Assembly: GCA_005656395.1 (NCBI GenBank)
Contig: SRSI01000046.1
Coordinates: 1,381,103 to 1,445,102, forward strand
Length of the DNA: 64,000 nt
Direction: 5' to 3'
From: Strongyloides papillosus
Lineage: Eukaryota > Nematoda > Chromadorea > Rhabditida > Strongyloididae
Positions 12,406-54,700 of this stretch are shown one piece after another. The notes beneath the pieces were generated by a model. The model saw nothing but the letters and a program-made list of their open reading frames with translations. It had not been told where the DNA came from and searched no databases. The position numbers and the translations under genes were made by a program. Every line of letters starts with the position of its first letter. The first letter of the stretch is position 1.

Positions 12406-12477
12406 ACAAAACCCGTCAGATCTAAACTTACTCTTCTCGTTGGCTCACCCTCCAGTAATAGGGCTTCGTAAAGAAGA

Positions 12478-12739: not shown

Positions 12740-12800
12740 TCCCTCCTTCAAGATCTTGACACTTCTATAACTTCGAGTATGTTTTTTTCCAAATCTATCT

Positions 12801-16659: not shown

Positions 16660-16691
16660 TAGTCAAAATATTATAATTTGATTACATATAA

Positions 16692-30301: not shown

Positions 30302-30799
30302 ATGTCTAATAATAATAAGGAATTATTATGTGCTAAATTTAATCCAAACCACATAAGAAGACTATTCGACGATTCATCAGAATGCAGTTCACCTTATTCT
30401 GTTAAAACACAAAGTTCTGTTAGAACACAAAATTCTTTTGAAACACAAAGTTCTTTTGTTGATAAAGAAAGTCAAGAAAGAGAAAATGTTGTTGAAAAAG
30501 TTGTTGACAAAGTTTGCAGAAGACGTGGGAGGCCAAGAAAGAAAAAGTTTGATGAAATGGAAAATAATCCAGAGTCCTACCAATCAAGAATTGAAGAGAA
30601 CGAAAAAAAGAAATCATGTAATGTTAGTTTTATTTTTTGTTTTAAAATTTTAACTTGTATTTTACAGTCTTCATTTGCAAATTTGTTATCAAGTTTAGAA
30701 AACAAAGAAAATGGTAGTAAAAGTGATGAAACTGGTAAAAATAGTGGAAATGAAGAATCAAATGAAAAAAATTCAACAATAAATAGTGTAAAGGAATGA
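30302..30799 (+). CDS. AT-hook protein whose C-terminus runs into an LTR
   Basis: Two exons, 30302-30622 and 30668-30799, with a 45-bp GT-AG intron (GTTAGT...TTTACAG) that is in phase and stop-free. The Ser-rich N-terminus has three imperfect repeats of (V/F)xTQ(S/N)S at ~34-53, then an acidic/basic helix and an AT-hook (CRRRGRPRKKK, ~78-88). That motif binds the minor groove of AT-rich DNA, so a nuclear role is likely. The last four codons and the TGA lie in the LTR of element C, so the native C-terminus has been replaced. I do not recognise the orthologue. The AT-hook is certain; the gene model is moderately so. Confidence 0.65.
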   Translation: MSNNNKELLCAKFNPNHIRRLFDDSSECSSPYSVKTQSSVRTQNSFETQSSFVDKESQERENVVEKVVDKVCRRRGRPRKKKFDEMENNPESYQSRIEENEKKKSCNVSFIFCFKILTCILQSSFANLLSSLENKENGSKSDETGKNSGNEESNEKNSTINSVKE

Positions 30800-30992
30800 A
30801 GCCTTTCTTTATGAAAATTTAGTTTCCCACTACTCCATTATCAAAGATGCATTATCGCTAATGGATTATGTTGATATAAATATCACATAAACTGATATTT
30901 TTGATATATCTTATCTTTTAACAATAAAACTTTATCATTTATTGTATTTTATTCTTAATCGATTTCTATGAGTATGTTGAAATCGAATAACA
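30787..30992 (+). repeat. 5' LTR of element C (206 bp)
   Basis: Pairs with 40773-40978 with about seven differences. It contains the Gag start codon at 30968. Confidence 0.93.
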
Positions 30993-33160
30993 TGGAGGTT
31001 CCACCTAAGGAACAAAATAAGAAACTAAAGGATAAAGAGTTATTTGACACTCTAATGGGACAGTTAAAAATGTATGAGTCCGTTGACCAGGATATAGAGC
31101 AATCATTAAGAGCTCTATGGTCAACAGGAAACTACAAGGCGGCAGAAAAGCTAATTGACAAAATGATTGGCAATATAGAGAAAGACTCTTCGAAGGCGGA
31201 CAGGTTGGCTACACCGGAAGTGAAATCAGCTGTAAATGACAACACATTATTGAGAACACTTACTCCATTTGAAGGAAATGATGTTACCGAATTTAAACGA
31301 TGGGTAGAAACTTACGATTTGGCAGTTTCACTAGCACATCAGACACTACCTAATGAACAGAAAGAGAAATTAAGATGTATTTATTTGGCATCCTATTTGA
31401 AAGGTCGCGCAGGACAATTACGTAAAGATGCTTATGCAAGGATGGTAGATATCACGTTTGAAAGACTGATCGGATATATTGAAAATAATTTACCAGTACC
31501 TATAAGCATTGAAAGAACAGGACGTATGAGAAGGGTTTATTTCAAAAACATGACGGACGACTTTGAGGAACACTGTAATACGTTCTTGGAAGGTACGAAA
31601 GCTGCGACAGGAGTAAGCATAGATATGTTGGCTGGACGTTCTCCAGGAACGATGGAACCATTACAACAGCTTACAAGAATTGATTTTATAAACAGCTTTC
31701 CCTTCTATATTAGGGAACATTTGGAACAAATGGCTTTCACATCTTCTCTTTGGGAAATTAAAGATGCAGCCTTCGAACTAGTACTAAGAGAAAGAAACAA
31801 ATTAACAAGACGAAATATGAAAGTCTCTTCACCAACCAGAGAGAGGAAGAACCAGCAATCCAACGAAGACAAACGTCAAGAACGTAGGCAGGCACCAGGA
31901 TACTTTAAATCACGAAGAATTGTTAATGTAGTTAACCCTCAACAACCTGAAGATATCAATCATCCTTCAGAAGTTGAAGACCCGGTCGAACTTAATTTTG
32001 CAGGTCCTATCGTACCAACAGTTCTGTCAATACAGCCAGGGAGGATGCCGACACACAGATCTTATGGTTTAGCATGGTGGATAGTAGTATTATTGGCGGT
32101 AATACCGGTAATATACATGAGTCACTATGTATGGGATTGTAATCAGGTGTCATCAAAGTCATGGAACATAGCAGCTCCTCATAGAATAAATTGCAATAAT
32201 CTTCAAATGTGGCACTTAGAATCCAGATACGTGTTTCGCAGAACCGAAAACAATTGTACGAAAACACTGGAATTATTAGCGGTAAGCAATAATTTCATAT
32301 TGCTAATCAAGGACAACCCTACATTGTTATACAAGACAAAGGAAAACAACCAGAAATGTAATGTTTCAGCTTACACACTCAGTAAGGGATATTTGACCAA
32401 TTTTGTGGACAACATTTGGCAATTTTCAACTATACCTCAAGAAGTGGCAGATGATCAAATAAGATTACCCGAGGATATGGATGAAAGCTTAAAGGGTATT
32501 GCAATACAGTTGCTGTTATTTAAGGCGGGCATATTAGTAAGGCAACTTGACAAGACGCAATGGGATGCCTTATTTATTAATATCTTCAATGCACACTACA
32601 AGGAAGTGCACAAAAGGCATATATTTCGAACAATTACTTTTACATTGGTCCAACAATTAGTAACCCCTTTATATAATACAGCATATGTTAGACTACAGAA
32701 GGAATTTATGGATATTAGTAAGACAATTGATCCTACGGAGAAAATGCGAATATTTTTAGAAAGAGAAGACATTAGGGCATCATACCATCAGGGTAGATAC
32801 AAGATTCAAACATGTACGAAAGTGAAACCAACCTCTATCTTTACGGACTATAGGTACCAAAATATGTGTTACACTTTTATGCCAGCGATAGTAAATAAAT
32901 CACTCAAGTTTGTGGACCAAAATAATTATTTGCATGAACACTCCCAAGGGTCTCCTTGTGTTACATTAGCTAAACAGGAAATTCAAAAGATACAAGAGAC
33001 TCAGAGATCAGATGAAGGCATTCTCGAATCCTTAGGAGAAACAGTAAATATGTTTGAGAGGGCAGTTCAAGTACTGGAACTATCATTAATACACGGTATT
33101 ATAGTTATTTTAGGGATACTCGCTTGTATAGTTATAGGTGTTTGGGTATTAAAATGCTAA
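30968..33160 (+). CDS. Gag fused to a membrane glycoprotein (element C ORF1)
   Basis: A 730-residue frame starting inside the LTR, with an in-frame Met-Glu-Val-Pro-Pro at the LTR boundary as in element B. Residues ~90-290 are a gypsy-type Gag capsid region; ~275-320 are basic; no CCHC knuckle is seen. From Met360 the protein changes character: a hydrophobic segment (~366-388, AWWIVVLLAVIPVIYM), an ectodomain with seven cysteines near 391, 409, 430, 464, 616, 634 and 664 and N-glycosylation sequons (NCT 429, NVS 465, NKS 643), and a second membrane segment (~706-729) ending in Cys. The ectodomain matches the stand-alone protein at 48579-50120 in its WHLE, NCTK and CYxxMP motifs and cysteine order. 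An acceptor-like TACAG (32031-32035) precedes Met360 by 10 nt, so the module might also be made from a spliced RNA. The family is unrecognised; envelope-like is an inference from topology and context. Confidence 0.88.
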   Translation: MSMLKSNNMEVPPKEQNKKLKDKELFDTLMGQLKMYESVDQDIEQSLRALWSTGNYKAAEKLIDKMIGNIEKDSSKADRLATPEVKSAVNDNTLLRTLTPFEGNDVTEFKRWVETYDLAVSLAHQTLPNEQKEKLRCIYLASYLKGRAGQLRKDAYARMVDITFERLIGYIENNLPVPISIERTGRMRRVYFKNMTDDFEEHCNTFLEGTKAATGVSIDMLAGRSPGTMEPLQQLTRIDFINSFPFYIREHLEQMAFTSSLWEIKDAAFELVLRERNKLTRRNMKVSSPTRERKNQQSNEDKRQERRQAPGYFKSRRIVNVVNPQQPEDINHPSEVEDPVELNFAGPIVPTVLSIQPGRMPTHRSYGLAWWIVVLLAVIPVIYMSHYVWDCNQVSSKSWNIAAPHRINCNNLQMWHLESRYVFRRTENNCTKTLELLAVSNNFILLIKDNPTLLYKTKENNQKCNVSAYTLSKGYLTNFVDNIWQFSTIPQEVADDQIRLPEDMDESLKGIAIQLLLFKAGILVRQLDKTQWDALFINIFNAHYKEVHKRHIFRTITFTLVQQLVTPLYNTAYVRLQKEFMDISKTIDPTEKMRIFLEREDIRASYHQGRYKIQTCTKVKPTSIFTDYRYQNMCYTFMPAIVNKSLKFVDQNNYLHEHSQGSPCVTLAKQEIQKIQETQRSDEGILESLGETVNMFERAVQVLELSLIHGIIVILGILACIVIGVWVLKC

Positions 33161-33211: not shown

Positions 33212-35404
33212 ATGAGCGATATGGTGGAAATGCGGCTAATGAGACCAACAGTGTCAGTAGCAGTAACACAGATAGGGAAACAACCAATGGTGGATCTCTA
33301 CGTTCATCAGGAAGGGCAAACCAAAATTGCTAGGTATCTTATTGATACAGGGGCTTGTGTTTCGTTTATACGCAAGAAATGTGTAAAGCACAATACATTT
33401 CTTTCACTTTTTACCCAGCCAATGACAGTTGCAACGGACTTTAATAATCAACCTATAAAGGCCATAGGCAAAACATCAATCCTGTTTGTCTTTGGAAGAA
33501 AGAAATACGTTAAGGTGGACATATGGGTGGTGGATGACCTTAGATATGATATACTCATTGGCTCGGATGTCTTGGAAGATATGGATTGGAATAATTTGTC
33601 AGTCACGTTCAAATTAGCAGCTAATTCAATACAAATAGGCACTATAAGATATCCCTTGGTGAGGAAAGCCTCAGTGGCATATTTACAACCATATGAAGTA
33701 TGGAAAACAATGCGTTCGTGGATTAGTTTACTACAACCACCCTCTGTCATCCAATTCCAGGAAGATAAGAACCCAGAGATTCTAGACTTATCTACATTAG
33801 ATTTACCAGAAGAGGCAATGGCGGATTTTGGAATTTGGGAACCACTTCCCAAGGAAAGTACTCTGGCAACCATTAACTGGAAGGGTACGGCCTTATCGGG
33901 AAGAGGCCGTGCAAAAGTAGCATTGATTATTCAAAAGTGGTCAGAGGCATTCATAAAACATGATGATGACATTGGAAGATATAAAGGGCCAATTGCACAC
34001 ATAATTAAGTTAAAACCGGATGCGAAACTACCTTACACGGGGGTACCACGACACTCAGCCTACACTAATCAAGAAGCAAAAAAGCATGTCGATGCTATGT
34101 TAGCAAATGGTATAATAAGACCATCCACAAGCCATTGTACGTCAAGATTCTTAATTGTTCCAAAACTAAATGGAACTACACGCTTCGTGGTTGATTATAG
34201 AATGATAAACAATGCAACAAGAATAGAAGTACCAAGCATACCATTAATAGAGGATATCATTAAGACGGTCAGTCAGTATAAATACTTTTCGGCATTTGAT
34301 GTGGCCTCAGGCTTTCATCAAATTTCATTAGAAGCAGAATCACGATTTCTCACGGCCTTCAATTCACCCTGGGGAGTATATAAATTCAATACAACACCAA
34401 TGGGATTGAGTGGTAGTCCTGGAACCTTCCAAAGAGTAATGGATAATATTTTTCGTGACATGAAAGATCGATTATTAATTTATATTGACGACATAATCAT
34501 CTTTTCGAATAATGAAAATGAACACATCAAAACAATGAATGAATTTCTACACCGAATCGTTCATAGTGGATTGAAATTGAGACTGGATAAAAGTAAATTT
34601 GGAGTAGATGAACTAACCTACTTAGGATTCAGGATCTCTCAAAGAGGCATCGAGGTGGATCCGGCAAAAAGCAAGGACGAATTACAGGAATTACAAACAT
34701 TACATGAACAAAAGAAAATCATAAAAAGAAACGGTCGCTTCTACAATTTAGCAAACGAGGGGGGAAGTGGTGGAATTATACCACCTAAAGAAAAAAGAAA
34801 GGAATTTCTGGAGGCGTTTCATCAACATCCTTTGTTTGGGAGTCATTTTGGATGGGAAAAAGTTCAGGAAAAATTAAGAAAGTTAATGAATTGGCAAGGT
34901 ATCAAGGAAGAATACAAAGAATTGTGTAGAACCTGCATACAATGTAACACTCAAAATTTTTTACCAACATATTCAGTATGTAACATTACATATTTTTGTA
35001 ATAAAATTGGTAAAAATTACTTCAGTATGTTATTTACATACTGATGTCTTAAATTTCAAAAAAGTATGTAATATAGTTTTTACGTGAAAAACACATATTA
35101 ATATGTGTTTTTTTTACTGTGATAATTTTACATACTAAATATGTGTTATAAATTTTTAAAATAAACACATATTTTTTCTTAATTAACTTTAATGTTTTAA
35201 GTCTAATTATCATAAATATTATTCATATTAATGTGCAAATCTAATTTTATTTTAGTAAAACTACAAACAATACAAAATAATTATTATGAAATAAAAAAAG
35301 AAACATAAAGCTACAAATTAAAAACAAAACTACATTAACAGAAAACAAACAATAATTGACTGGACACAAACTTCTTCAAGAATTTCTTATCCTTAACTAG
35401 TGAA

Positions 35405-35710
35405 ATTGAATCTGAAAGAAAAAGTAAAATGAAGAAATAGAGCAAAACCTATCTTTTTTAACAGATTGAATATGAAGAGATGATTCCTAAGCTTATTATT
35501 GACAAATCTACACCTGAAAAAATATTGTTATATAAGAAAAAATATAATAAAACTTATCTTATTATCAGTTTGAATAGTGAAGATGCTCCTTGTTCATATA
35601 ATTTGTGAATTCAAATCTGAAAAATTTAGTTATTTAAGAACAAAAAGGTAAAACTTATCTCATTATCAAGTTAAATTGTAGTATATGTAAAAAAATCTGA
35701 AATATAAACA
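35405..35710 (-). repeat. Four tandem ~100-bp units with intron-like edges
   Basis: On the minus strand, units at about 35696, 35616, 35513 and 35412 each have a pyrimidine-rich TTTCAG; the last three are preceded by ATAAGTTTT or ATAGGTTTT. They resemble a string of short introns whose 5' ends read AT rather than GT. I see no long ORF across them. Confidence 0.5.
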
Positions 35711-36160
35711 TGGTTAATATATAATAAAAACTATTAAATCAACATACCAATTACAAAATTTCTACTGGAAAAAGACAATACAATAAAAGTTAAAGATTAT
35801 TATATAGTGATATGTCAGGAAAAAATATGTAATTTAAAAACATAGGTAGACATAATGAAACAAAAACAACTATAAGAAGAATGATTGTGTTAAGACTATT
35901 TGGTAAAAAGAACACATTTTTAAATAACTTAAAGTATACATGTATTTATCATACTTCTAACAAGAGTCACTTAGTTTTTTGTTTGGAAATGATACTTTTT
36001 ACAACAAAGAACAATCATAGACATACCTCATAATAAAAAGACATACTACACAGCACAATATAAAAAGCATGGTATAAAGAAATCCCTTACATTAGTTTAA
36101 AACTATTAATTTTTGTTATAAAAAATTTATAAATAAAATTTTTAAATATTATACTATAAA

Positions 36161-36839
36161 ATGGAAAACGATAGTGAAACTACCATGCACGTATTGTTGA
36201 TTCAACATCAAATTAGAAAAAGAGGTATTTGATCAAAAAATAATAAAAAATTCTATTTTTATAGATGAATTATCAAGTGATAAACTTTATGAAAGAGTTG
36301 AAAGTGGCATTTTGAGCAAAAATGACTTCATCATTTTAGAAAGAATCTTTGCTGAAGTCTTTAAATTCACTTTGATAAGAATTGATCAAGAAAAGATCAA
36401 GAAAATTTTAAGCAAATTCTTCGAAAGCCACAAAATCAATGTAGATATGGATGCTTTCTGTTCAGGCACTAGTGCCTTCTATGCTAAATTAAGATCAAAA
36501 TTTAGCAATTTATACAGAAAAAGAAAAGAAAATGCTGAAAATGCTGAAATTGAAGAAAATAAAGAAGAGGAATTTGATTTTGAGAAAGAAATGAAGGAGA
36601 TAATTGGAAGAACAGTTGATAAGATTCATGAAAAATGTAAATCTCTGTTTAAAGCAAGAGAATTGTTGATGGAGGCTTTAGATTTAGAAGTTGATGCCTC
36701 TGTCATTGCAGAAAGAAAAATTTCAATTGATGGGATTGAAATGTTTTTTGAAGATTTTGTTGTCAACAAAATTAAAATTGATGATGGTCTTTTGAAATTT
36801 GTCAGACTTACACAAAAAATCAAAATAGAGAAAGTGTAA
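36161..36839 (+). CDS. Accessory protein of the CACTA-like element, 212 residues
   Basis: Exons 36161-36224 and 36265-36839 with a 40-bp GT-AG intron. The protein is hydrophilic and mostly helical, with a central acidic run (ENAENAEIEENKEEEFDFEK, ~115-135). There is no zinc finger, signal peptide or membrane segment. CACTA elements often carry a second gene (for example a TnpA-like DNA-binding protein); by position this would be that gene, but I do not recognise the sequence. It lies upstream of the transposase on the same strand, 520 bp away. Confidence 0.65.
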
Positions 36840-37358
36840 AAATTGAAAACAAGAGAAGAAGACATAAATACTCAAATATCAAAGTTTTCTTTGATTCTTA
36901 TAAATAATTTTTTTAATTTTTAATAATTTTTTAATAATTATTTAATTTTAATTAATTTTTTTGATAAAAATTTTTACTGCTAGTAGTTATAAATTTAGAC
37001 AAATCAGTATTATTTTTATCATTTACAAACAATCAAAATAAGGAACATTTTATCTCGTACTTTTGACTTATATTATAGAAGATTGTGCAACTCTTAAACG
37101 GTTAAATATACTATTCGTTATAAAAAGATAATATTTTGAACTTATATGATCTCTTAACCACAATATGTGCAACAATTAAAGAAGGTTTATAAAAAAACTA
37201 AGGTATAAAATAGTTAGTTGTTGCAAATGTGGTACTATACTATGTTGTATGAATAATATATTGCGCGAGTATTCCGATTAAAATAATAAAATATTTTTTA
37301 AATAATATTAATAATGTACTACAAGTAAACCTAATTTTATGTATTTTTATAATAGATC

Positions 37359-39721
37359 ATGAATGTTAAATGTTCTGTTTGCTTAGATGAAATTAACTTT
37401 AGTGAATTTACAAGTCATATAGATAGTCATATTTCCGGTACTGGTATTCTGAAGAAAAATTTAAAATTAAAATGTCTTCAAAATAGTGCATCAAATTGTT
37501 ATAATAAAGAATTTTCTTTTGCTTATTTTAAAAAGCATTTTTCAAATGTTCATAACAGTGAAGTAGCTATGGAAAGTAATAATAATTATGAAGATATTCC
37601 ATTATCTAGTAATATTAATATGGATGAAATGGAAGAAATTATTATAGATGATATTAATATGGATGAAGTTGAAGAAATTATTATAGATGATATTAATATT
37701 ATTGAAGAAGAAACTAATGATTTTGAATTATATGATAATTTTGAAGATGATGACTTTGATAATGAATTTACATTATCTCCTGAAGTTGAATCATTTGTTC
37801 AGGAAATATTTTCAAACTCGATGCAACATAAAGTAGTTGATAATAGCATAAATAATTGTTTAAAATTATTGAAATGCATAAATAATGCAGTGAATATTAA
37901 AGCAAAACTTAAAAAATGTATAGAAGAACTTTCATCATTGAATACATACGTCAAAAGATCAAAAATTATTACTTCTAAGAGGAATGGAATAATAAAAAAA
38001 GAAGTAAATACAGATAAAGGTGTTTTTCCTTGTTATTATTTCAACATTATATCTAGGTAACTTCAAATTAAAAATTTTTAATATAAATTTTTAGAATAAA
38101 GCTATTGTTATCTAATAATGACTTTAAAAGGCATCTAGAATTTAGTCATGACATCAAAAAAAATGTTTATGATTCATATCTTTGTGGAGAATATATTCAA
38201 AAAATTAAAAATGATGTTATTAGAAAATACAATGTAGCTGATCCAAAAATACTTTACATAGTAACGTATTCTGATGATTATAATGTTACTTCAAGATCAT
38301 CAATTCAAAATAGTAATAATAGTAGTGTTACTGCTGGATACTTTTATTTTTTAAATATGAACGAAGATGTAAGCAGTCGTTTAGAATCGATTTCTCAATT
38401 TTATGTTGATCCTTCATGTATTTCTAAATACTCTAATGATGAACCATTTAGAACAATGAAAGAATATTTTAATGAAATTAATGATTCAGTTATAAATATT
38501 GGTTTAGAGCAATATTTTATCAGACATGTATTACATGCAGGTGATAATCTTGAATTAAAAAAGTACCATAATATTGAATCAGGATTTAGAGGAAGAGATT
38601 CACAACCTTGTCGTTTATGTAAAACTATAGGTTCAAATTTTCCATTAATGACAAGAGAATGTCTTATTCCTCAATGTTCAGTAGGAGTTTCTGATCCATC
38701 CTACTTTGTAGATATAACGCATGATTTTTTTTTGGGAGCAGCAGTATACTTTTTTAAGATAGTTTTTACAAAATTAAATAGTAGAAGACTTATATCTGTT
38801 GAAACATTAAATGAAACTATAAAAAATATCAATTTTCAAGATCATGATAAGCCAAATTACTTCAAAGATTTGAATAATATTTATCAAAATTCAGGACAAA
38901 TGAAAAGTTTTTTTACTTTTTTTCCAGTAATACTTAAACGTTCTCTGATAAACGAAAATGATTCTTTAGAATTTATAAAAACATTACTGATATCATATGA
39001 AAATATAAGAAAAATAATGGAAATTATAAATTCTCCAATAATACATGAAATTGATTTAATTTCATTAGAAAAATTAATTGAAATATATATTAAATTTCTG
39101 AGAGATGAAAGAAGTGAAGATGAAAGTAGTAGAAAAATTGTAATAAAATATAAAGAACATATATTAATTCATTACATTTCTGCTATTAAAAAACTCGGAA
39201 ATTTGAAAAAATTCAGTACAATAAGATGTGAAGCAGCACACCAACAAGGTAAAAGAATGATACAATTAAGTAATAATAAGAAGGATATTTGCTTAACATT
39301 GGCAAGAAAGAAACAACTTGATTTTTCTTATAAGATTGGTAAAACAAATTATTTTAATATTCAAAAAGAAAAGTTAAGGATTAATGATCATATTTTATTG
39401 CTTAACAAGAAATATCACCAAACATCAAGGAACATGTCTTCAGAATCAAAATATTTCTGTTGCAAAGTTACTGATGTATTTGAAGACAAAATAATTGTAA
39501 ATAAGCTTCAATTTGTTGTTAAAATTGGGTCAATGTATGCCTTTGATGATAGTAATGAGTATTTAACAATTGAAGATATATATTCATGGGACGTAAGAAA
39601 GCAAAATGCTTTCTATTTTATGGAAAATTTCTCTTTTTTTATATTTTATGAAAATTGGAAGTTTCCAAATGTATTAACTTTAAATTCACACAAAATTTTA
39701 AAATATTTTAATTATGAATAG
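37359..39721 (+). CDS. CACTA/EnSpm-type transposase of the animal class, 774 residues
   Basis: Exons 37359-38056 and 38095-39721 with a 38-bp GT-AG intron. The N-terminus has C2H2-like fingers (KCSVCLDEINF ... HIDSH and FKRHLEFSH). An acidic section repeats NMDEMEEIIIDDI twice (~86-112). The middle carries landmarks of animal CACTA-like transposases: a Cys pair (PCRLCKT), DITHDFFLG, in the place of the family's D-x-x-H-D-x-x-E-G, the GQMKSFFTFFPVIL block, KEHILIHYISAIKKLG and then RCEAAHQQGKRM. The C-terminus is a hydrophobic/aromatic domain (YSWDVRKQNAFYF). The frame is intact, so this copy may be functional. The start is the first Met in the exon; an upstream exon is possible because AATAGATC precedes it. 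Confidence 0.85.
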
Positions 39722-40772
39722 ATGTTATAAATTAAATAAAAATATTTACACACTGGCGTATGTATATTTAAAACAAAGTATGTAAATTACAGCAAAGTTC
39801 TAAAAAAAACATACTTGATATGTTAATTTATCTACCAGTATGTATATTACATACAAAATAAAATGTACATACGAAATATGTCAGTAAAAATTTTGAGTGA
39901 AACAGAACAAATCCATTCCGGCTGATGTTATAAAATATAAGAATCAAAGTATTATTTGTGGAGAGGTACCATTAGGGAAGGTCAATATAGATATCCTACA
40001 GCATGGTAAAAAGAATGAAGATGGATATATCGCAGTAGTAATAGCGGTAGATACGCTAATCAGATTTGCTATGGCTGCTCCAATTCGAAAACTAACATCA
40101 GAAGAAGTAATTTTGGCTTTGTTAAGGGATATTTTCTTTAAGTATGCTATTCCTAAACAGATTATTACTGATAAAGGAACCTGCTTTGTATCTGAAGAAT
40201 TTCAAGATTTCATAGAAAAGTTAGGCATTGTGACCATACTTGCACGGCCAATCATCACCAATCCAATGGTGTCGTAGAGAGACTTAACAGAACAATCAAT
40301 GAAGCTATCAGAATATATCAGGGAAAAGACTGGATCCAGACTGTGAATAATACTATATTCACTTACAATGATTCAATTCACCCTAAGACCAAGTTATCTC
40401 CCTTTTACTTAATGATGGGTAGACATGCTAATTATGGGGTAACGGAAAATCAAGTGATAACTACCGGAGAGTACAAGGAAGAGATAAAACAATGGGAGGA
40501 ATACCTAAAAGAACTGCAACAACACTGGATTAATCAATTCTTGAAAAGCAAGGAATCTGGAGACAAGCTTAAAGGTATCGAAGTAGACATCCATATTGGA
40601 GACCAAGTTATGAAGAAGCGAATTGTTAACAAGAGAGGGACTACAAGTCCATGGATTGAGCCGTATACAGTTATTGGGAAAGATGAACATCAACGTATCC
40701 ATATCAAAAAGGGGAGAAAACAAGAATGGCTACATGTTTCTCAATGCAAACGCTTCAAAATTGGAGGGGGGG

Positions 40773-40978
40773 TGTGAAGGAATGAAGCCTTCCTTTATGA
40801 AAATTTAGTTTCCCACTACTCCATTATCAAAGATGCATTATCGTTAATGGATTATTTTGATATAAATATCACATAAACTGATATTTTTAATATATCTTAT
40901 CTTTTAACAATAAACCTTTATCATTTATTGTATTTTATTCTTAATCGATTTCTATGAGTATGCTGAAATCGAATAACA
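40773..40978 (+). repeat. 3' LTR of element C (206 bp)
   Basis: Pairs with 30787-30992, directly after the polypurine run. Confidence 0.93.
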
Positions 40979-41061: not shown

Positions 41062-42596
41062 TCACGGCCTGTCATCAAGAAATATGGTGAATATTCCTGA
41101 ATCTTCTGAAGTACTACTATTCATAACAAATTCAACAAACGATAAAAATTTATCCCTCTCTTTTGTTTTATCTTTTGCAAGTTTATTTAAAATATGTTGT
41201 GCCGTCTGGATGTATCTTTCAGATAGAAAATTGCCTTTATGCCAATATTCAGTTGAATGTGTTAACTCCACATTCGTACTCATCAACCAATCTTTAAAAA
41301 TAGACGATTTAAAATTCTCTGCATTATCTGAATTTAAAATAGGATAATATCCATGTTTCATAAAAACATTTGTACTAACGATAGAGCAACATTTTCAAAA
41401 TCTTGTTTTGGTAGTGGATGTAAAGATATTTAAAATATTTTAATGTTATCACTAAGAAAAGTATGAAACATCAAAATAAAAGTAATGTTGCATTAACCAA
41501 GCTAGTGGAGGCTTGGGAAATGCAGCATAAATAAACAATATTTAAAGAATAAAATTTTAATATACATTTACATTTTCTTTTTGAAAAATAGAAATCCTGA
41601 TTGATTTCTTTATCTTTAATAAAATTATTTTACTATATTTTTTTATGGACTTAAGGTAATGTATTTGGAGAAACAATCTATTTTTAGCAAAATATATTTA
41701 TTATCTTGTTCACTGATATCAATCGGTCCTAATATATCAATTGCTAATGCTTGACCTAGACCACTATACGAAATCGATGTTTCAGCAATCTTTCTTACAT
41801 GAGACTTATGTTTTGACTGACATATGGTACATGATGATAAAATCTTTATTATTTTTAACGACAAATTTTCAATTTTATACTCCATGCCATCTTCATGGTT
41901 AGAAATTATGTGCAACATCTTTTTATAGCCAATATGACCACTAGATTGATGAATTTCCATAAGATAATTTTGTTCCTCTAACTTATTTAATTTAGAATCT
42001 TTCGGTGTTAATTTTTCTATCAATTCACTATTTTTGATTGTCATATCCTCAGTCGTTTTAGGTTTACGTCCTCTCTTCTTTTTGATCTTTGTACTTTCAG
42101 TAGTACTTGTTACATTGTCTCGCACATTTTTTGACTTACGTTCTCTCTTCTTTTGTACTTCCTTTTTAGTTTCTTTCTTATTATATGCATTCTCACTAAT
42201 CGTTTTGTCGTAGAAATTTTTTGGTTTTCGTCCTCTCTTCCTTTTCTCACCTATTATAACCTTTTTACATTAGTGTCACTTTCTTTTTCGGACCTTTCAT
42301 AGTTATATTGTATATACAACTATCACTCTCTCCTTCAATTGTAAAAGATTTATCTTTTTCATTATCGGCATTAACTATTTTATTCATTGTTCTAAGATCT
42401 TTTTCATTCATTATTTCATCATCTTTTTCATCTTCATAACTTTCAATATCTATATAATTTAGGATTTTTTCATTCTCAAACTGTATTCCTTTTACGTATA
42501 CACATCGCAAAGATGCTCTACTAATGGCATCTGCTAACTGATTGTGAATTCCTGGGATATACTTGATCTCAACATTATGATTTAGAATTCTTGATA
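41062..42596 (-). pseudogene. Integrase region of element D
   Basis: RNase H end: IPGIHNQLADAISRAS (42555-42505 area). After a basic linker (KKKRGRKPK) comes the HHCC finger (HQSSGHIGYKKML ... CTICQSK), Asp (LAIDILGPI), a ~280-bp interruption (41362-41642) that destroys the core, then Asp (ILNSDNAENF) and Glu (FLSERYIQTAQ). Frameshifts separate the three parts. Confidence 0.85.
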
Positions 42597-42598
42597 TA

Positions 42599-44674
42599 CA
42601 GGGTGTCCAGAAAGTCATCACCCCATTTTGATACAATGTAACTTTTTTCGTTTGTAATATTTATTTACGATTTTATAATCATTGTAAAGTTTAACTCGTG
42701 CTAAATTAAATGGTTAATAAAAATTAAAAAATAATTAATTTTAACAGGAGTTATTAACATTTATATGATGTCAATTTTTTTTAAGAAAAATTTTTGTTGT
42801 TTTTTAAATTTTTAACAGATTAAACCTTTTGTAAATATGATGTTTGTTTACATTATTTATGTTCTTTTAAAGTGAAACTTATTTTATCTAACATATTTCA
42901 AAATTGGTGAAATTGGAATACTTTTAAACGTGTGTAAAAAAGCTATAAATACAATTAAAAAAAACTTCCCTTTCATTGCATAAATAAAAGTTGCATATGC
43001 TATCCAAAAAAATTATATTTAAAAGTGTAATTTAAAATATTTTTTTCGAAAAAAATATGATTTGTACTGATAATTATAAATTATTTCTACTTTTTCTAAC
43101 ATTGTATGCTATTTCTGCACAAAAATTCAAGTATAGCCAATTTGAGCGAACAATAGTTGTAGAATGTTATTACGTAAACAACTTATCAATTATTCTTACA
43201 CAAAAATGTTATAAAAAATATTTCAAAACGAGAAATGCTCCAACTCGTCAAACGATAAGAAATATTGTTAAACGTTTTAATAAACATGGATCTGTAAGTG
43301 ACGTGAATCGTCCAGGAAGACCCCGTACAATGTCTTCAACTGAGAATATTGAAAAAATAAAACAAAATGTTTTAGTAGATGGAAATATTTCATTAAGAAA
43401 ACGCGCCCAACAATTATGTATGGCCAAATCAACACTTCATGATGTTATGAAGCATAAAATAAAATTTTTCCCCTATAAACCACAAACAGCACATGAATTA
43501 TTACCTGTTGATAAAAACCAAAGAATAGATTATGCTGAAAAAATTAAAGAATTAATTGAAAAAGACTGTAATTTTATTGATAAATTAATAATGAGTGACG
43601 AAGCAAATTTCTATTTAAATGGTTTTGTAAACAAACAAAATTACAGACAATGGAGTTTGAAAAATCCTAGAAAAATTATTAATAAAAAAATGAAGTCAAA
43701 AAAAGTTACAGTATGGTGTGGAATAACATCAAAGAAAATAATTGGACCATACTTTTTTGAAGATAAAAAAGGTAAATTATTAATGATAAATGTAAAACGA
43801 TACCGAGAAATGTTAGAAAAATTTTTGGTTCCTGAGTTAGCAGCATTTCCAAAAGATACATGGTTCCAGCAAGATGGAGCTCCATCGCATACTGCTGCTA
43901 AGACTATTGAATTATTAAAAAAAATATTTAATAATCGGGTAATATCAAGAAATTCACCTGTAAATTGGCCATCGAGATCCCCAGATCTAACAACACCCGA
44001 TTTTTTTTATGGGGTTATCTTAAAAATCGTGTATATCAAAATAATCCTAAAACATTAAGCCAATTGAAACTCAATATTAGAAATGTAATAAATTCCATTA
44101 CAATTGATACATTAACAAGAACTATGAATAGTGCCATTGATAGAGCAAAACTTGTTGAAGAAGAAAAAGGTGGTCATCTTAAAAAAGTAATATTTCATAA
44201 TTGATATTTTTAAAATTAGAATTAATAATTTTAATTGTGTTAAACTATGTCTTTAGTAATATTTGTAATTAAATACACAAAAACGTTTAATTACTATTAA
44301 TTGCGCATGATAAAATGGACTTAATATTAATGTCTTTACAAATGTCTAAAAGTATTCCAATTTCACCAATTTTGAAATATGTTAGATAAAATAAGTTTCA
44401 CTTTAAAAGAACATAAATAATGTAAACAAACATCATATTTACAAAAGGTTTAATCTGTTAAAAATTTAAAAAACAACAAAAATTTTTCTTAAAAAAAATT
44501 GACATCATATAAATGTTAATAACTCCTGTTAAAATTAATTATTTTTTAATTTTTATTAACCATTTAATTTAGCACGAGTTAAACTTTACAATGATTATAA
44601 AATCGTAAATAAATATTACAAACGAAAAAAGTTACATTGTATCAAAATGGGGTGATGACTTTCTGGACACCCTG
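42599..44674 (+). mobile_element. mariner/IS630-family transposon with ~337-bp terminal inverted repeats
   Basis: Begins CAGGGTGTCCAGAAAGTCAT and ends with its reverse complement, with TA on both sides (42597-42598 and 44675-44676). The inverted repeats run about 337 bp (42599-42935 and 44338-44674), far longer than the ~30 bp usual for mariners. Total length 2076 bp. It interrupts RNase H of element D. Confidence 0.95.
43057..44204 (+). pseudogene. mariner transposase with one frameshift
   Basis: A DDD transposase. The N-terminal HTH part includes RQTIRNIVKRFNKHGSVSD and GRPRTMS. Catalytic residues: MSDEANFYLNG, WFQQDGAPSHT and SRSPDLTTPDFF. The first frame (43057-44058) is lost in a run of eight T at 44001-44008 within DFF; the family's LWGYLKNRVYQ continues in the next frame to 44204. 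One missing T in a homopolymer explains it, and a sequencing slip cannot be excluded. The long TIRs are nearly matched between ends. Confidence 0.92.
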
Positions 44675-45927
44675 TATATCGCAACATGAACTTATTACTT
44701 GTACTCTTAATCATACCTAACAATGTTTTATGATCCGTATAGACCATTGTTTTTGTATTTCCAATTATATATCTAAAGTGATTTAAACATTCTGCAATCA
44801 CTTTGAGTTCTAACTCTCCAGCAGGTACATATCCATTTACATCATTAAATTTATTATCAATGTCTTCAAATTTCTTTCTTAAAGCAATATTTTTACTATA
44901 AAATCCAACGGTTAAGTATCCTTCATCATTTCTCTGTAATAATGCTCCAACAATATAAAAGTTTGAAGCATCTGTTACCAATACAAATTCATTGCTAGGA
45001 TCTGGATGATACGAAATACAAGCCTTCACAATACTATTTTTAACTTCCTTAAACGCCTCTCTTATCTCCTTGGAATCTTTATAAACACCTCTTTTATTCA
45101 TCACAAGACATAAAGATTTCAAGGACTTGGCAAGTGCAGGTATGTTACTTCTAAACCAATTTACAGCTCCAACAAATCTTTTAATAGCTTTATAACTATT
45201 AAAGCTTGGATAATTCAACCATGCATTTAAGATTTTTATTTCAGGTAAAATACGCTCCTTGGTGATAATAAATTCACGTACAGTTATGGCTTCACATCCA
45301 AATCGTGATTTCATGACATTAGCTGTAGCTCCTGTATCCTTCAGTCTCTGTGAAAACTTAACGACTTCTTTGACGTGATATAGCCAATCCTCTTTAGTTA
45401 CCAGTATGAAGTCATCCACGTAAGTTTAGATATAGTCCCGTCAGCGATTTTTTCTGCTATATTTTGGGCATAACTACACGCGTTTTTAATTCCAAATGGC
45501 AATCTCTGGAACTGATACTTTTTACCATGAGTATCACGGAAAGCGAGATATTCCTGGTCTTTCTTATCAATTGGCAGTTGCAAGAAATAGCTATTCAAAT
45601 CAATAACGGTAAAAAATTTCCCTTCTCTCATTTCATTTAACATTTCATTAGTTTTAAGCAATGGATACTGGTAGTCTTTATAAAGTTCATTAATGGGTCT
45701 TGCATCCAGAACAACTCTTACTTTATCGTCAGACTTTAGCACACAGTGGATATTTAAAAGAGTCCGGGGCCATTCGCTCGCAACAATTATATCATTCCCA
45801 ATCCACCCATCAATTACATCCTGTGCAGCCTCTTTATACTTTCCCGAAATAAGATACAAAGTGAACTTCTCAATCTTTTCATTTTTATATTCAAATGGAG
45901 GTACTTGGTAGGTGCATCTGCCTATTC
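44675..45927 (-). pseudogene. RT-RNase H region of element D
   Basis: RT: VVLDARPINELYK, FQRLPFGIKNACSYAQ, then a frameshift near 45420 before MDDFILVT (the YxDD region). RNase H: LVTDASNFYIVG, VYTDHKTLLG, ending at the mariner insertion. Upstream, the frame is open to 45927, where the Tigger-like element begins. Confidence 0.85.
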
Positions 45928-46695: not shown

Positions 46696-46920
46696 CACTT
46701 TTTTAAAAATTGTAATGTATGTATAAATTTTTAAATTTTTTGAATTATCTAAGGTATTTCTGCATGTGCTTTTATATTTTTTTTTTAAAAACATATACAC
46801 ATTAAACAATTTTAAAATTCATATTTTCACTAATTTTTGTCACAGACATTTAAAAAATGATATCAATTTCGACAAAAAAATTTTTCTGTGTTTTAATTTT
46901 GTTTATTATAAAATACCTAT
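46696..46920 (+). repeat. Left long inverted repeat of the glycoprotein segment
   Basis: Pairs with 50390-50804 in reverse complement, without the ~200-bp insertion seen there. Confidence 0.8.
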
Positions 46921-48578: not shown

Positions 48579-50120
48579 ATGTTTTCAAAGATCAATCTCA
48601 TTGGACCATTTTTACTTATTTTACCTCTAACTTTGGCAACTGATACAGGAAATCAAAAAAAACAAATTTTCTACAACTGCAACAATTACCAGGAGATTGA
48701 CAGCTTTGATTTGAGAGTACCTGAAAAATGCAACGTTACTGAAGACATATCATGGCATTTGGAGCTTAAGAACGTAATTCGGTACCATAGAAAAAACAGA
48801 ACTTGCACAAAAGAACTAAAAATTGTTTTCGTATCAAAGGATCATGTTTTAGTCCCAATTCAAAATTCTGAAGGAAACAATGATTTTCTCTTATTGGATT
48901 ACTTAGATGGCATTTACAAGCATCAACCTTCATGTCTTTCAGGAGATACCAAATACCACATATTTAACTATGACATTTACATTGATGTCATGCGTGATAA
49001 CTTCTGGACTGATAACATCACGATACACAAAGCCTTTGAAAAGTCATTTTTGGAGTTTGTTGTCGGTAATAATTATGAACACTTCAGTGATGAAGCATTG
49101 TTTGCATCAATTGAAGCTTTTCTCTTTGCCAAATGCATAAATGGAAAGCACACCTTAAAGGAATACTATGGTATAAATGAAGAACCTCATAGTCTTATTG
49201 AATCAATTAAAGGTCTTTTTGAATCAGAAAAATCAAAGAAATATCTCAGTTATAAAAACTTGGAGCACTATTTTTATGAAATTACACAATTTAACTTAAC
49301 AAACGATGAAACAATTATTAGTCGAGGATCAAAAATAATCAAAGACAAAATTCAAAGCATGGCAAAATTGAATTATAAAGAAACATGCAAATTGAAAAAT
49401 GAAAAGAGAAAAATATTCGCCGAAAATGCAACTCCCAATCAAATAATTAGAGAATATTTTAATAGAAAAGATATTCTTGCTGAAGAGATAGAGGTCAATG
49501 AACTATACCTTGTTCATGTCTGTAAACAAGAAAATCCGAAAGAAATCCATTCGGATTTCAAACTTGATGAGGTATGTTATGAAAAAATGCCGATGGTTTT
49601 AGAAGATGGATCTTTAATGTTTGCTGATAGAAAACATTACTTGTACCACTATTCATCAAAAAGATCCTGTACCAGTTTATTTAATATTAAAAGTCCAATT
49701 TATGAATACCATGAAGCTGAAATGGATCCATACGATTTAATAACAAATGGTCTTATGGAAAGAGTTAGTGTCAAATTTTCGAAATTATCTACTGGATGGT
49801 TTGGACATTCACTACAAAAACACAAATTTTACTTTATTATTGGAGCTGTATTCATATTTGTATTTGGAACTACAGTATTATTGGTTGTTAGCTATTTTTG
49901 CTTGAAATCATTAGGAACAGATGGAATATTTGAAGCAGTTGAATATACTTTTAAAATACTTACTTCAATAGTGATTTACTTTTTATGGATACTATTGAGA
50001 ATTCTAACAATATTTTTACCGTTTTTGAACAAAAAAGCCCAAACACTTGAAAAAACATTCAGTAATTTAACAAAAACGAAAAAAAATTCACAAACGTCGG
50101 AGCTAAGCGTATTGCCATAA
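48579..50120 (+). CDS. Stand-alone envelope-like membrane glycoprotein, 513 residues
   Basis: An intronless type I-like membrane protein. Signal peptide ~1-20 (IGPFLLILPLTLA), ectodomain ~21-415 with N-glycosylation sequons (NVT 52, NRT 73, NIT 146, NLT 239, NAT 283), a membrane segment ~417-442, a short loop, a second hydrophobic segment ~457-483, and a basic/Ser-rich tail. Cysteines at 34, 51, 76, 119, 315, 333 and 364 match those of the glycoprotein module in LTR element C, together with WHLE (59-62), NRTCTK (73-78), CYEKMP (333-338) and SLMFAD (345-350); the 315-to-333 spacing equals that of element C. It lacks the Gag part and has ~120 residues more in the middle. No protein family comes to mind; a captured envelope or fusogen is one reading, a host surface protein captured by element C is the other. 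The frame is fully open. Confidence 0.85.
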   Translation: MFSKINLIGPFLLILPLTLATDTGNQKKQIFYNCNNYQEIDSFDLRVPEKCNVTEDISWHLELKNVIRYHRKNRTCTKELKIVFVSKDHVLVPIQNSEGNNDFLLLDYLDGIYKHQPSCLSGDTKYHIFNYDIYIDVMRDNFWTDNITIHKAFEKSFLEFVVGNNYEHFSDEALFASIEAFLFAKCINGKHTLKEYYGINEEPHSLIESIKGLFESEKSKKYLSYKNLEHYFYEITQFNLTNDETIISRGSKIIKDKIQSMAKLNYKETCKLKNEKRKIFAENATPNQIIREYFNRKDILAEEIEVNELYLVHVCKQENPKEIHSDFKLDEVCYEKMPMVLEDGSLMFADRKHYLYHYSSKRSCTSLFNIKSPIYEYHEAEMDPYDLITNGLMERVSVKFSKLSTGWFGHSLQKHKFYFIIGAVFIFVFGTTVLLVVSYFCLKSLGTDGIFEAVEYTFKILTSIVIYFLWILLRILTIFLPFLNKKAQTLEKTFSNLTKTKKNSQTSELSVLP

Positions 50121-50389: not shown

Positions 50390-50804
50390 TTTTCAGTATT
50401 GTAATTTATGTACACGGAAAAATTTTTTTGTCAAAAATAATGTCATCTTTTAAATGTCTGTGACAAAAATTAGTAAAAATATGAATTTTAAAATTGATTT
50501 AAATGTGTATTTTTGTAAATTATTATTATACTTTATAATATAATGATGACAATCCTTAATATATAAGAATAGAAAATTAAATTTACCTCTTTATTGTTAT
50601 AAACCTCCAACAAAACGAGAGGGTAAGTTTTAAATTTTTGATTACTATTATTTTTGTTTAGTTTTTTCCTACTTATCAAAAAAATTTCAAACATTTTATA
50701 TGTTTTTAATAAGAAAAATGCAAAAACACATACAGAAATACCTTAAATAACAATTTTAAAAAATTCAGTAATTTATATATACATTACAATTTTTTAAAAA
50801 ATGC
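50390..50804 (-). repeat. Right long inverted repeat of the glycoprotein segment
   Basis: Reverse complement of 46696-46920 with an extra internal stretch (about 50515-50700). Confidence 0.8.
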
Positions 50805-51230
50805 ATTCCTTTGTCTTTTCTGAATGCTATCTGGCAAATTTGGTCTTTTTGTTTAAAAAACGACAAAAAACATTTTCTGTGTAGCTTTATTAAAATATTA
50901 ATTAATTATACTTTGTTTGTTAACATTTATTTAATGATATCAATAATACTACAAAAAACATATTATTTACTGTATTAATCTCTTTTATCGTTATTTTGCT
51001 TTTTTATACGCTATTACTTGTCTATTCTGCTTTTTTATACACTGTTACTTGTCTACCCTGCTTTTTTATAAACTATTATATATAATACAAAGTAACCTTA
51101 GTCAAAATTGTTATATATTGTAGTATTGAAACAAATGTCGAAAAAAGCAAAATAGCCGAGTCAACTTGTTGTCTCTCTTCATACTAACGAGTGGTAACTT
51201 GACGTGTCGCCGTAGATACAATCATTTGAT
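50805..51230. other. Spacer before the satellite, with a small tandem repeat
   Basis: No gene seen. 50993-51066 holds about two and a half copies of a ~33-bp unit (TGCTTTTTTATACNCTRTTA). The first ~80 bp on the minus strand might be a decayed continuation of element D. Confidence 0.55.
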
Positions 51231-51589
51231 AATAAAATTAGGAAACCATTTAAGTACACCTCTTACAATCTTTTGAAACCATTCATAGACACTCATTTTT
51301 AATCAAAATTAAGAAATCATTTAGAGACACCTCTTTTAAATCTTTTTAGATCAATTAAAGACACTTATTTAAGAAATCGTTTTAAGACACTTCTTTTAAA
51401 TCTTTTTAGTTAGATCAATTAAAGTCACTTATTTAAGAAATCATTTAAAGAAACTTCTTTTAAATCTTTTAGTTAGATCAACTAAAGACACTTCTTTTTA
51501 GTTAGATCAACTAAGAACACTTCTTTTATATCTTTTTAGTTAAATCAATTAAAGTCACTTATTTAAGAAATCATTTTAAGACATCTCTT

Positions 51590-51720
51590 AAAACAGTATT
51601 AAGAAATCGTTTTAAGACATCTCTTAAGACAGTATTAAAAAAGTCGTTTTAAGACATCTCTTAAAACAGTATTAAGAAATCGTTTTAAGACATCTCTTAA
51701 AACAGTATTAAAAAAATCAT
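51590..51720. repeat. Block of the 36-bp satellite unit
   Basis: Four copies of the TTTTAAGACATCTCTTAARA unit. Similar blocks lie at 52565-52885, 60190-60330, 60840-61015, 61620-62085, 62450-62915 and 63280-63740, alternating with 38-bp-unit blocks. Confidence 0.9.
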
Positions 51721-54700
51721 TTAAAGACACTTCTTTAAAATCTTTTTAGTTAGATCAACTAAGAACACTTCTTTTAAATCTTTTTAGTTAGATCAACTAA
51801 AGACACTTATTTAAGAAATCATTTAAAGACACTTCTTTTAAATCTTTTAGTTAGATCAACTAAGAACACTTCTTTTAAATCTTTTAGTTAGATCAACTAA
51901 GAACACTTTCTTTAAATCTTCTTAGTTAGGTCAACTAAGAACACTTCTTTTAAATCTTTTTAGTTAGATCAACTAAGAACACTTTCTTTAAATCTTTTTA
52001 GTTAGATCAACTAAGAACACTTCCTTTAAATCTTTTTAGTTAGATCAACTAAGAACACTTCCTTTAAATCTTTTTAGTTAGATCAACTAAGAACACTTCC
52101 TTTAAATCTTTTTAGTTAGATCAACTAAAGACAATTCTTTTAAATCTTTTTAGTTAGATCAACTAAGAACACTTCTTTAAATCTTTTTAGTTAGATCAAC
52201 TAAGAACACTTCTTTAAATCTTTTTAGTTAGATCAACTAAGAACACTTCTTTAAATCTTTTAGTTAGATCAACTAAGAACACTTCTTTTAAATCTTTTTA
52301 GTTAAATCAATTAAAGTCACTTATTTAAGAAATCATTTAAAGACACTTCTTTTAAATCTTTTTAGTTAGATCAACTAAAGACAATTCTTTTAAATCTTTT
52401 TAGTTAGATCAACTAAGAACACTTTCTTTAAATCTTCTTAGTTAGATCAACTAAGAACACTTCTTTAAATCTTTTAGTTAGATCAACTAAGAACACTTCT
52501 TTTAAATCTTTTTAGTTAAATCAATTAAAGTCACTTATTTAAGAAATCATTTAAAGACACTTCTTTATACAGTATTTAAAAAATCGTTTTAAGACATCTC
52601 TTAAGACAGTATTAAAAAAGTCGTTTTAAGACATCTCTTAAGACAGTATTAAGAAATCGTTTTAAGACATCTCTGAAAACAGTATTAAGAAATCGTTTTA
52701 AGACATCTCTTAAAACAGTATTAAAAAAGTCGTTTTAAGACACTTCTTTTAAACAGTATTAAGAAATCGTTTTAAGACATCTCTTAAGACAGTATTAAAA
52801 AGTCGTTTTAAGACATCTCTTAAGACAGTATTAAGAAATCGTTTTAAGACATCTCTTAAAACAGTATTAAAAAAGTCGTTTTAAGACACTTCTTTTAAAT
52901 CTTTTTAGTTAGATCAACTAAAGACAATTCTTTTAAATCTTTTTAGTTAAATCAATTAAAGTCACTTATTTAAGAAATCATTTAAAGACACTTCTTTTAA
53001 ATCTTTTAGTTAGATCAACTAAAGACAATTCTTTTAAATCTTCTTAGTTAGATCAACTAAGAACACTTCTTTTAAATCTTCTTAGTTAGATCAACTAAGA
53101 ACACTTCTTTAAATCTTTTAGTTAGATCAACTAAGAACACTTCTTTAAATCTTTTAGTTAGATCAACTAAGAACACTTCTTTTAAATCTTTTTAGTTAAA
53201 TCAATTAAAGTCACTTATTTAAGAAATCATTTAAAGACACTTCTTTTAAATCTTTTTAGTTAGATCAACTAAAGACAATTCTTTTAAATCTTTTTAGTTA
53301 GATCAACTAAGAACACTTTCTTTAAATCTTCTTAGTTAGATCAACTAAGAACACTTCTTTAAATCTTTTAGTTAGATCAACTAAGAACACTTCTTTTAAA
53401 TCTTTTTAGTTAAATCAATTAAAGTCACTTATTTAAGAAATCATTTAAAGACACTTCTTTTAAATCTTTTTAGTTAGATCAACTAAAGACAATTCTTTTA
53501 AATCTTTTTAGTTAGATCAACTAAGAACACTTTCTTTAAATCTTCTTAGTTAGATCAACTAAGAACACTTCTTTAAATCTTTTAGTTAGATCAACTAAGA
53601 ACACTTCTTTTAAATCTTTTTAGTTAAATCAACTAAAGACAATTCTTTTAAATCTTTTTAGTTAGATCAACTAAGAACACTTCCTTTAAATCTTTTTAGT
53701 TAGATCAACTAAAGACAATTCTTTTAAATCTTTTTAGTTAGATCAACTAAGAACACTTCCTTTAAATCTTTTTAGTTAGATCAACTAAGAACACTTCTTT
53801 AAATCTTTTTAGTTAGATCAACTAAGAACACTTCTTTAAATCTTTTTAGTTAAATCAATTAAAGTCACTTATTTAAGAAATCATTTAAAGACACTTCTTT
53901 TAAATCTTTTAGTTAGATCAACTAAAGACAATTCTTTTAAATCTTTTTAGTTAGATCAACTAAGAACACTTCTTTAAATCTTTTTAGTTAGATCAACTAA
54001 AGACAATTCTTTTAAATCTTTTTAGTTAAATCAATTAAAGTCACTTATTTAAGAAATCATTTAAAGACACTTCTTTTAAATCTTTTAGTTAGATCAACTA
54101 AAGACAATTCTTTTAAATCTTTTTAGTTAGATCAACTAAGAACACTTCTTTAAATCTTTTTAGTTAGATCAACTAAGAACACTTCCTTTAAATCTTTTTA
54201 GTTAGATCAACTAAGAACACTTCCTTTAAATCTTTTTAGTTAGATCAACTAAAGACAATTCTTTTAAATCTTTTTAGTTAGATCAATTAAAGTCACTTAT
54301 TTAAGAAATCATTTAAAGACACTTCTTTTAAATCTTTTTAGTTAGATCAACTAAGAACACTTCCTTTAAATCTTTTTAGTTAGATCAACTAAGAACACTT
54401 TCTTTAAATCTTCTTAGTTAGATCAACTAAGAACACTTCTTTAAATCTTTTAGTTAGATCAACTAAGAACACTTCTTTTAAATCTTTTTAGTTAAATCAA
54501 CTAAAGACAATTCTTTTAAATCTTTTTAGTTAGATCAACTAAGAACACTTCCTTTAAATCTTTTTAGTTAGATCAACTAAAGACAATTCTTTTAAATCTT
54601 TTTAGTTAGATCAACTAAGAACACTTCCTTTAAATCTTTTTAGTTAGATCAACTAAGAACACTTCTTTAAATCTTTTTAGTTAGATCAACTAAGAACACT

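Follow-up and report, generated by a model that had tools for sequence, protein, structure and literature searches.

Mutator-like elements (MULEs) are transposons with terminal inverted repeats (TIRs), duplications of 8-9 bp, and extra genes, and the Pack-MULEs are known to sweep up genes. Among long terminal repeat (LTR) retroelements, the Metaviridae that bear an env gene are represented by the errantiviruses. The nematode retrovirus Atlas has been reported to encode a class II Env (PMC10309623), while the mosquito Pao elements known as Anakin hold a glycoprotein derived from chuviruses (PMC12440569 and PMC10084718). In Nematoda, PMC10084718 reports that such glycoproteins were integrated in a single event (two copies, with simple-repeat flanks), and no clear capture of them by Gypsy or Copia elements. 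Maverick/Polinton elements of nematodes have also been described to carry a putative fusogen (PMC10680173). Here, we analyze a stretch of 64,000 bp from the nematode Strongyloides papillosus (contig SRSI01000046.1, positions 1,381,103 to 1,445,102), which will be referred to as the window and corresponds to C12:1381103-1445102 in the genome searched, an assembly of 58.2 Mb in 79 contigs. The window encodes a membrane glycoprotein of 513 residues and an LTR retroelement, element C, in which a related module follows Gag. According to our analysis, it is rather probable that an envelope-like glycoprotein family of RNA-virus type (Monjiviricetes/chuvirus-type) is carried in this genome by two unrelated classes of mobile elements.

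Homology between the 513-residue protein and the element C module

The initial annotation of this DNA claimed that both proteins share one ectodomain, and the residue stretches that it named do match by BLASTP: 286-443 with 589-729 (E 1e-10), and 32-100 with 389-461 (E 2e-4). The pairwise identity is low (24-29%), as would be expected if the match originated by chance or by convergence among cysteine-rich secreted proteins. This explanation can practically be dismissed, because a comparison by hhalign of seven transposon-type sequences with six LTR-element sequences, a test set beforehand, aligned residues 30-368 of the 513-residue protein with high significance (probability 97.4, E 9e-12), and because other members, such as L052 (which matches the profile of the elements at E 4.4e-11), L014, and L024, bridge the two types. 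We consider the homology of the two ectodomains to be confirmed by these comparisons.

The seven cysteines proposed as common appear in the same order in both proteins (34, 51, 76, 119, 315, 333, and 364 versus 391, 409, 430, 464, 616, 634, and 664), with the two spacings originally given, 18/18 and 31/30. In the 16 members listed, some of which are near-identical copies, the distance equivalent to 315-333 is always 18, and that equivalent to 333-364 is 30 or 31. An eighth ectodomain cysteine (270) is common to the other copies, and it has been lost from the element C copy of the window. The motifs WHLE, N..CTK, CY..MP, and SL.F.D are present, and nine columns are invariant across 14 sequences.

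The 513-residue protein consists of an N-terminal hydrophobic segment, a cysteine-rich ectodomain (~22-415), a transmembrane (TM) segment (~419-442), and a second hydrophobic segment (~464-484). Hydrophobic segments were scored by a hydropathy threshold of 1.6. The C-terminal anchor that had been attributed to both proteins is found in both, while the N-terminal segment is clear in element C (2.17), marginal in the 513-residue protein (1.65), and below the threshold in the sister copy L069. Across the family, the C-terminal segment is observed in 15 of 16 members (the exception, L024, is a piece without that end), and the N-terminal one exceeds the threshold in 10 of 16, the remainder including L014, L024, and L052, which are pieces or lack the gene start.

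Protein database searches with the family retrieved only proteins of S. papillosus, including P0003, which is 95% identical to the 513-residue protein. The names given in the database to P0003-P0005 (Pv-fam-d, MIR domain) are not backed by any Pfam match of the window protein at E 1.

LTR elements with a glycoprotein inside the Gag-Pol frame

The LTR elements that hold the module are of the Ty3/gypsy (Metaviridae) type, with the order protease, reverse transcriptase, RNase H, and integrase (PR-RT-RH-IN). The Gag fusion annotated in element C is real (P0002), although not as a complete unit, since it belongs to a longer Gag-glycoprotein-Pol frame, which a stop interrupts in the window, where the RNase H part is missing. 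A single frame of 919 aa encodes Gag, glycoprotein, and protease in the sister copy L071, and the S. papillosus database protein P0006, which shares 98% identity with the ectodomain of element C, is a Gag-glycoprotein-protease gene model. Another copy, L070, exhibits a single frame of 1476 aa from Gag to RNase H, followed by a stop and then by the integrase in the same frame. On C76, the match coincides in part with an open frame of 1917 aa, and it contains one stop.

L070 contains the domains RVT_1, RT_RNaseH, H2C2, and rve, a weakly matched protease (E 0.03), and the sequence TGGAGGTTACCCC, similar to a primer binding site. Its LTRs (1819-2047 and 7764-7992) are identical at 229 of 229 positions and have the 4-bp flank GAAC on both sides. 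Because of this identity the insertion is recent, which indicates that the Gag-glycoprotein-Pol layout was functional until recently. The order Gag-glycoprotein is found in four subfamilies, C, D, E (L045, L046, and L048), and F (L047), the last two broken by stops. In subfamilies C, D, and E, the module is flanked by Gag and protease; in F it follows Gag, and a protease was not seen. This order differs from that of env-bearing retroviruses or errantiviruses, in which env is located 3' of pol. A literature search for Gag-Env fusions, at the level of titles and abstract openings, retrieved nothing relevant.

The 20 residues located after the second TM segment have a net charge of +10 in L071 and +9 in L070, and those before it of -2 and -1, respectively. 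The flanks of the first TM segment have charges of +1 and +3 on the N-side, and -1 and 0 on the C-side. On the basis of the positive-inside rule and this charge distribution, Gag and Pol are predicted to be cytosolic, with the ectodomain outside or in the lumen. The module forms part of the Gag-Pol frame, after Gag and before the protease. In the mechanism that we propose, Gag and Pol would stay in the cytosol, the ectodomain would face the outside, and the protease of the element would free the parts. Each particle-forming precursor would in this manner bring its own surface protein.

The unit formed by the two TM segments and the ectodomain might instead be a membrane anchor or a targeting device for intracellular assembly, and not an entry protein. 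A single frame with Gag and Pol and with two TM segments is certainly an unusual site for an entry protein, and the identical LTRs reveal a recent germline insertion, which requires no entry. We nevertheless judge this possibility unlikely, because an ectodomain of ~310 residues that keeps its cysteines, and whose ratio of nonsynonymous to synonymous divergence (dN/dS, calculated by Nei-Gojobori with stop codons skipped) is 0.20-0.25 in the three pairs of element C glycoproteins compared, would be superfluous for a mere anchor, and because the module is also found as a gene of a DNA transposon.

A DNA transposon carrying the glycoprotein gene

The proposal that the 513-residue protein is encoded by a free gene has not been borne out. 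Homologous copies lie inside a DNA transposon with TIRs, 8-bp duplications, and a transposase-USP stretch, and the window copy keeps the right end of this element. One example is the glycoprotein gene at C13:996551, which sits in a unit of 9,001 bp (L076/L069) with TIRs and with AAATACTA on both sides. From the left, this unit encodes a 107-aa piece overlapping an open reading frame (ORF) of 545 aa with a ubiquitin-hydrolase (UCH) domain (PF00443, E 1.6e-14), a gene for 403 aa, and, in divergent orientation, the glycoprotein gene. The 107-aa piece has 17 matches in the genome, four of which overlap four of the 27 places matched by the MULE transposase model PF10551 (C10:1629869, C15:1080089, C5:1286592, and C59:113804). 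Given the 8-9 bp duplications and this overlap, the transposon is probably Mutator-like, the likeliest class. An identification as a Merlin element was dropped after the UCH/transposase-USP and MULE-place results.

The left ends of the transposon read like GGCCGCCCGTCG..TTCACCACTGGCTATTTTGC, and the right ends like the inverted counterpart. The end core was found in the genome 78 times in forward and 75 times in reverse orientation, counts to which inner tandem repeats with two mismatches contribute; a control with the pattern read backwards yielded 0 and 1. Five of the eight copies tested (L017, L019, L020, L027, and the 9.0 kb L076/L069 copy) are bounded by direct repeats of 8-9 bp, with the boundary in L027 unclear by 2 bp, while L018 shows no flanking direct repeat. 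As a separate observation, L021 and L022 (C8:72743-83103), in opposite orientation, carry each other's 8-bp flanks, a sign of recombination between them with inversion of the intervening stretch.

A protein search of the genome revealed five near-full-length copies of the glycoprotein gene, that of the window and four others 66-69% identical to it; four of the five are open end to end, and one of the four non-window copies has a stop. The ninth place on C9 holds only the first 121 residues. Two further copies on C13 are accompanied by a transposase-USP stretch with stops, and their end cores are separated by ~8 and ~13 kb. For the copy on C4, the matches listed include none to the transposase-USP stretch. 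In addition, ~13 or 14 further places match only the tail of the gene. Eleven of them were examined: by pattern, seven hold both the left and the right ends, three only the right end, and L023 neither, although its left-end core was visible in a separate end comparison. In the four tail-only copies whose duplications fix the ends, the length is 2.1-3.0 kb. The examined tail-only loci look like internally deleted copies of the transposon, and the alternative that the TM tails are exons of other genes was rejected. C57:122155, C5:930040, and C14:1221512 each hold a related transposase-USP ORF of 984 aa whose match is free of stops; no glycoprotein match is listed for them, and each adjoins a small ORF resembling the end of the 403-aa gene (E ~1e-4).

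The 513-residue ORF is the glycoprotein gene of an old transposon copy whose left part is missing. The synonymous divergence between the window copy and the other four long copies is 1.04-1.12. Near the gene, the end of a later insertion similar to a miniature inverted-repeat transposable element (MITE), at 50412-50879, is an inverted copy of 46773-46891. The idea that the pair 46773-46891/50412-50530 delimits a transposon of 3.8 kb containing the gene was rejected; because the other copies lack 50412-50879, both sequences are separate small insertions.

In all 10 pairs of transposon glycoproteins, dN/dS is 0.165-0.217 at dS of 0.1-1.1 (L013 was included only from the stretch after its stop), which indicates that these genes were kept for protein function while multiplying. 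The transposon, probably Mutator-like, carries the glycoprotein as a separate gene beside the 403-aa gene and the transposase-USP gene; in the proposed mechanism, the protein may serve at cell membranes in packaging, in passage between cells, or in host-cell fusion. The gene could also be a passenger without function for the element, swept up in the fashion of a Pack-MULE. The existence of only five near-full-length copies, including that of the window, the amplification of derivatives that retain just the gene tail, and the related family with the 984-aa ORF and no listed glycoprotein match would all fit such a passenger. However, four of the five long copies have remained open, the dN/dS values imply selection after amplification, and the gene travels together with its 403-aa partner, all of which makes a passenger quite improbable. 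No relevant report of a MULE with an envelope glycoprotein was found among titles and abstract openings.

Origin of the family and possible relation to viral glycoproteins

The family includes, apart from the two types mentioned, the bridging L052 (395 aa), the types L014, L016, L024, and L028, and the genes L072-L075 (358-435 aa). These last four exhibit a C-terminal TM segment in all cases, whereas L072 and L073 are the only ones whose N-terminal hydrophobic segment exceeds the threshold. The tree groups the LTR-element modules in one clade (support 100/99) and the transposon genes in a second one (100/100). L052 is placed close to the LTR clade (87/83), and L072-L075 are separate from both; since some of the branches are long, the program cautions that sequences may have been joined falsely. 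Two other arrangements are worth mentioning. A further glycoprotein relative is repeated three times at ~13.19 kb spacing (C15:554769, 567955, and 581140), apparently as a tandem array. Moreover, the relatives L014 and L028 have in common a downstream ORF of 137 aa (L014 1-411 and L028 3352-3762), 65% identical, which suggests a further repeated unit.

The initial annotation recognized no known glycoprotein class. This statement has to be softened, as L072 (E 2.8e-5, profile positions 328-431) and L052 (E 0.0013, 392-430) match PF24664, the Monjiviricetes fusion glycoprotein model, though below its curated cut-off. Both matches overlap at profile positions 392-430, the site of the most conserved motif of the family, and neither of two reversed controls matched. 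When the genome was searched with PF24664, a single place was retrieved, L072, below the cut-off, and there was none in 14 control genomes. We suggest that one family of cysteine-bonded membrane glycoproteins, probably originated from the surface protein of an RNA virus of the Monjiviricetes/chuvirus type, underlies both classes of elements. Viral descent of the family is likely on this basis, and a role as fusogen is putative.

Several results weigh against this proposal. Only two of 22 family pieces match PF24664, with 22.7 and 17.2 bits versus a cut-off of 27; the window protein is not filed as a member because the cut-off is not reached, and neither P0001 nor P0002 from the window has any match. 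The family proteins are shorter than the model, which has 653 positions. Sequence searches against the PDB yielded nothing below E 0.65, the best matches being unrelated proteins, and the AlphaFold models are of low confidence (pLDDT 38.1 and 35.5), too poor for fold comparison. With respect to the elements, a single stop codon separates RNase H from integrase in L070. The window copy of the transposon shows no second (left) end core within the window when up to three mismatches are allowed, nor does it appear among the listed transposase-USP matches. Repeats of 8 bp were found by a loose search at 272 of 3585 random places; the repeats found, however, abut the TIR ends. The five best matches of the 107-aa piece outside the family (C14:1222961, C8:55744, C5:931489, C6:1560733, and C57:123604) are not PF10551 places, and the pieces of L076 do not match PF10551 directly at E 1. 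Finally, L072-L075 look like host genes.

Further searches did not identify a viral relative. Among viral contigs, six places exhibited the pattern, none of them a relative, and another viral-contig search found none; a search of the literature on Monjiviricetes class III found nothing.

The host-like appearance of L072-L075 raises the possibility that the family originated in the host. The family could be an ordinary one of nematode membrane receptors or surface proteins, from which each element captured a gene, with the viral likeness being distant or convergent. The pattern was not met in unrelated nematode secreted proteins, yet these related, host-looking genes carry it: they are open, anchored at the C-terminus, free of transposon domains in the stretch read, and on their own branch in the tree, and L072 adjoins an ORF that by eye resembles a multi-span membrane protein. 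The matches to PF24664 are, moreover, below threshold. On the other side, these matches coincide at the most conserved motif and are absent from the reversed controls, and the module has been joined to Gag in several LTR subfamilies, where a surface protein of the particle would be useful. We hold a host origin to be doubtful, although it deserves attention, and favor descent from a viral surface protein.

Other features of the window

The features of element C and of the transposon copy are compiled in Table 1. The two ORFs of the insertion nested in element C, 37356-38060 (234 aa) and 38087-39721 (544 aa), have no significant Pfam match.

Table 1. Coordinates, in the window, of the parts of element C and of the transposon copy
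Feature	Position	Strand	Remarks
5' LTR of element C	30787..30992	+	96.6% identical to 3' LTR over 207 aligned bases
Gag + glycoprotein of element C (P0002, 730 aa)	30968..33160	+	Stop directly after second TM segment; sister copies continue into protease
First TM segment, between Gag and ectodomain	32063..32125 (approximate)	+	
Ectodomain homologous to the 513-residue protein	32126..33082 (approximate)	+	BLASTP, hhalign
Second TM segment	33083..33151 (approximate)	+	In L071 followed by 20 residues of net charge +10
Protease-like + reverse transcriptase region of element C	33212..35044	+	~0.65 kb of L071 missing at ~34687
Insertion nested in integrase region of element C	34948..39899	+	Two ORFs
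Remaining integrase region of element C	39900..40777	+	
3' LTR of element C	40773..40978	+	
Divergent partner gene, homologous to the 403-aa gene that is intact in L069	46880..48006	-	Broken by stops; matches C12:1427982-1428161 and C12:1428095-1429108
Glycoprotein gene of transposon copy, 513 aa	48579..50120	+	ORF intact
Later MITE-like repeat insertion	50412..50879	.	Other copies align up to 50412 at most, and again from 50878-50880
Right TIR	51137..51211	-	Inner core 51137-51155 (1 mismatch); outer end GACGTGTCGCC at 51211

The window also encodes a Dicer-like gene (1254-6494), in which a helicase, a PAZ, and two RNase III regions are recognized. It is followed by two retroelements that apparently abut, at 8148-12584 and 12585-16660, each around a minus-strand Gag-Pol-like ORF and with probable LTR pairs at 8148-8255/12477-12584 (98%) and 12585-12740/16505-16660 (100%). 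An ORF for an IS1595-type transposase (18143-18892; PF12762, E 1.2e-16) adjoins an ORF similar to DNA mismatch repair proteins (19259-20518). Another transposase-like ORF (42593-44680), with matches to DUF4817 and a helix-turn-helix (HTH), lies between inverted repeats of 346 bp (99% complementary) and is surrounded by minus-strand retroelement-like ORFs. The stretch 51286-64000 is a long satellite array with units of ~38 bp, higher-order repeats, and strong GC skew.

Significance and comparison with known systems

The sharing of one glycoprotein family across two transposon classes hints that worm transposons can share virus-like proteins for exit and entry. A tentative scenario, to which we give limited credence, is that a fusion glycoprotein descended from an RNA virus entered one nematode lineage and was then captured by a Ty3 element, giving rise to a membrane-spanning Gag-envelope-Pol precursor, and by a Mutator-like DNA transposon. 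If true, elements of both classes could pass from one cell or individual to another, and the transposons of nematodes would draw on a common pool of proteins for entry. The transfer of DNA transposons between species is an open question, to which a cut-and-paste element that encodes a surface glycoprotein of its own offers a testable answer. An envelope located inside the Gag-Pol precursor of an LTR element, a layout not met in the portions of the literature available, predicts in turn topology and assembly.

Among the viral models, the closest one is PF24664, matched below threshold by two family members; it is longer than the family proteins and is not matched by those of the window. With respect to mobile elements, Anakin represents the same kind of event, an LTR element that acquired a glycoprotein from Jingchuvirales. 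However, Anakin is of the Pao type and from mosquitoes, whereas the elements reported here are of the Ty3 type and from a nematode, with the module within the Gag-Pol frame. Errantiviruses and Atlas are likewise described as LTR elements with a membrane glycoprotein, but their env lies 3' of pol, while here the module precedes the protease in one frame. The Maverick/Polinton elements resemble the transposon in being nematode DNA transposons with a viral-fusogen-like gene. As described, they encode polymerase, integrase, and capsid, in contrast to the transposase-USP stretch and 8-bp duplications observed here, where no capsid or polymerase was recognized. With MULEs, the transposon shares the TIRs, the duplications of 8-9 bp, putative relatives of the MULE transposase, and the carriage of extra genes.
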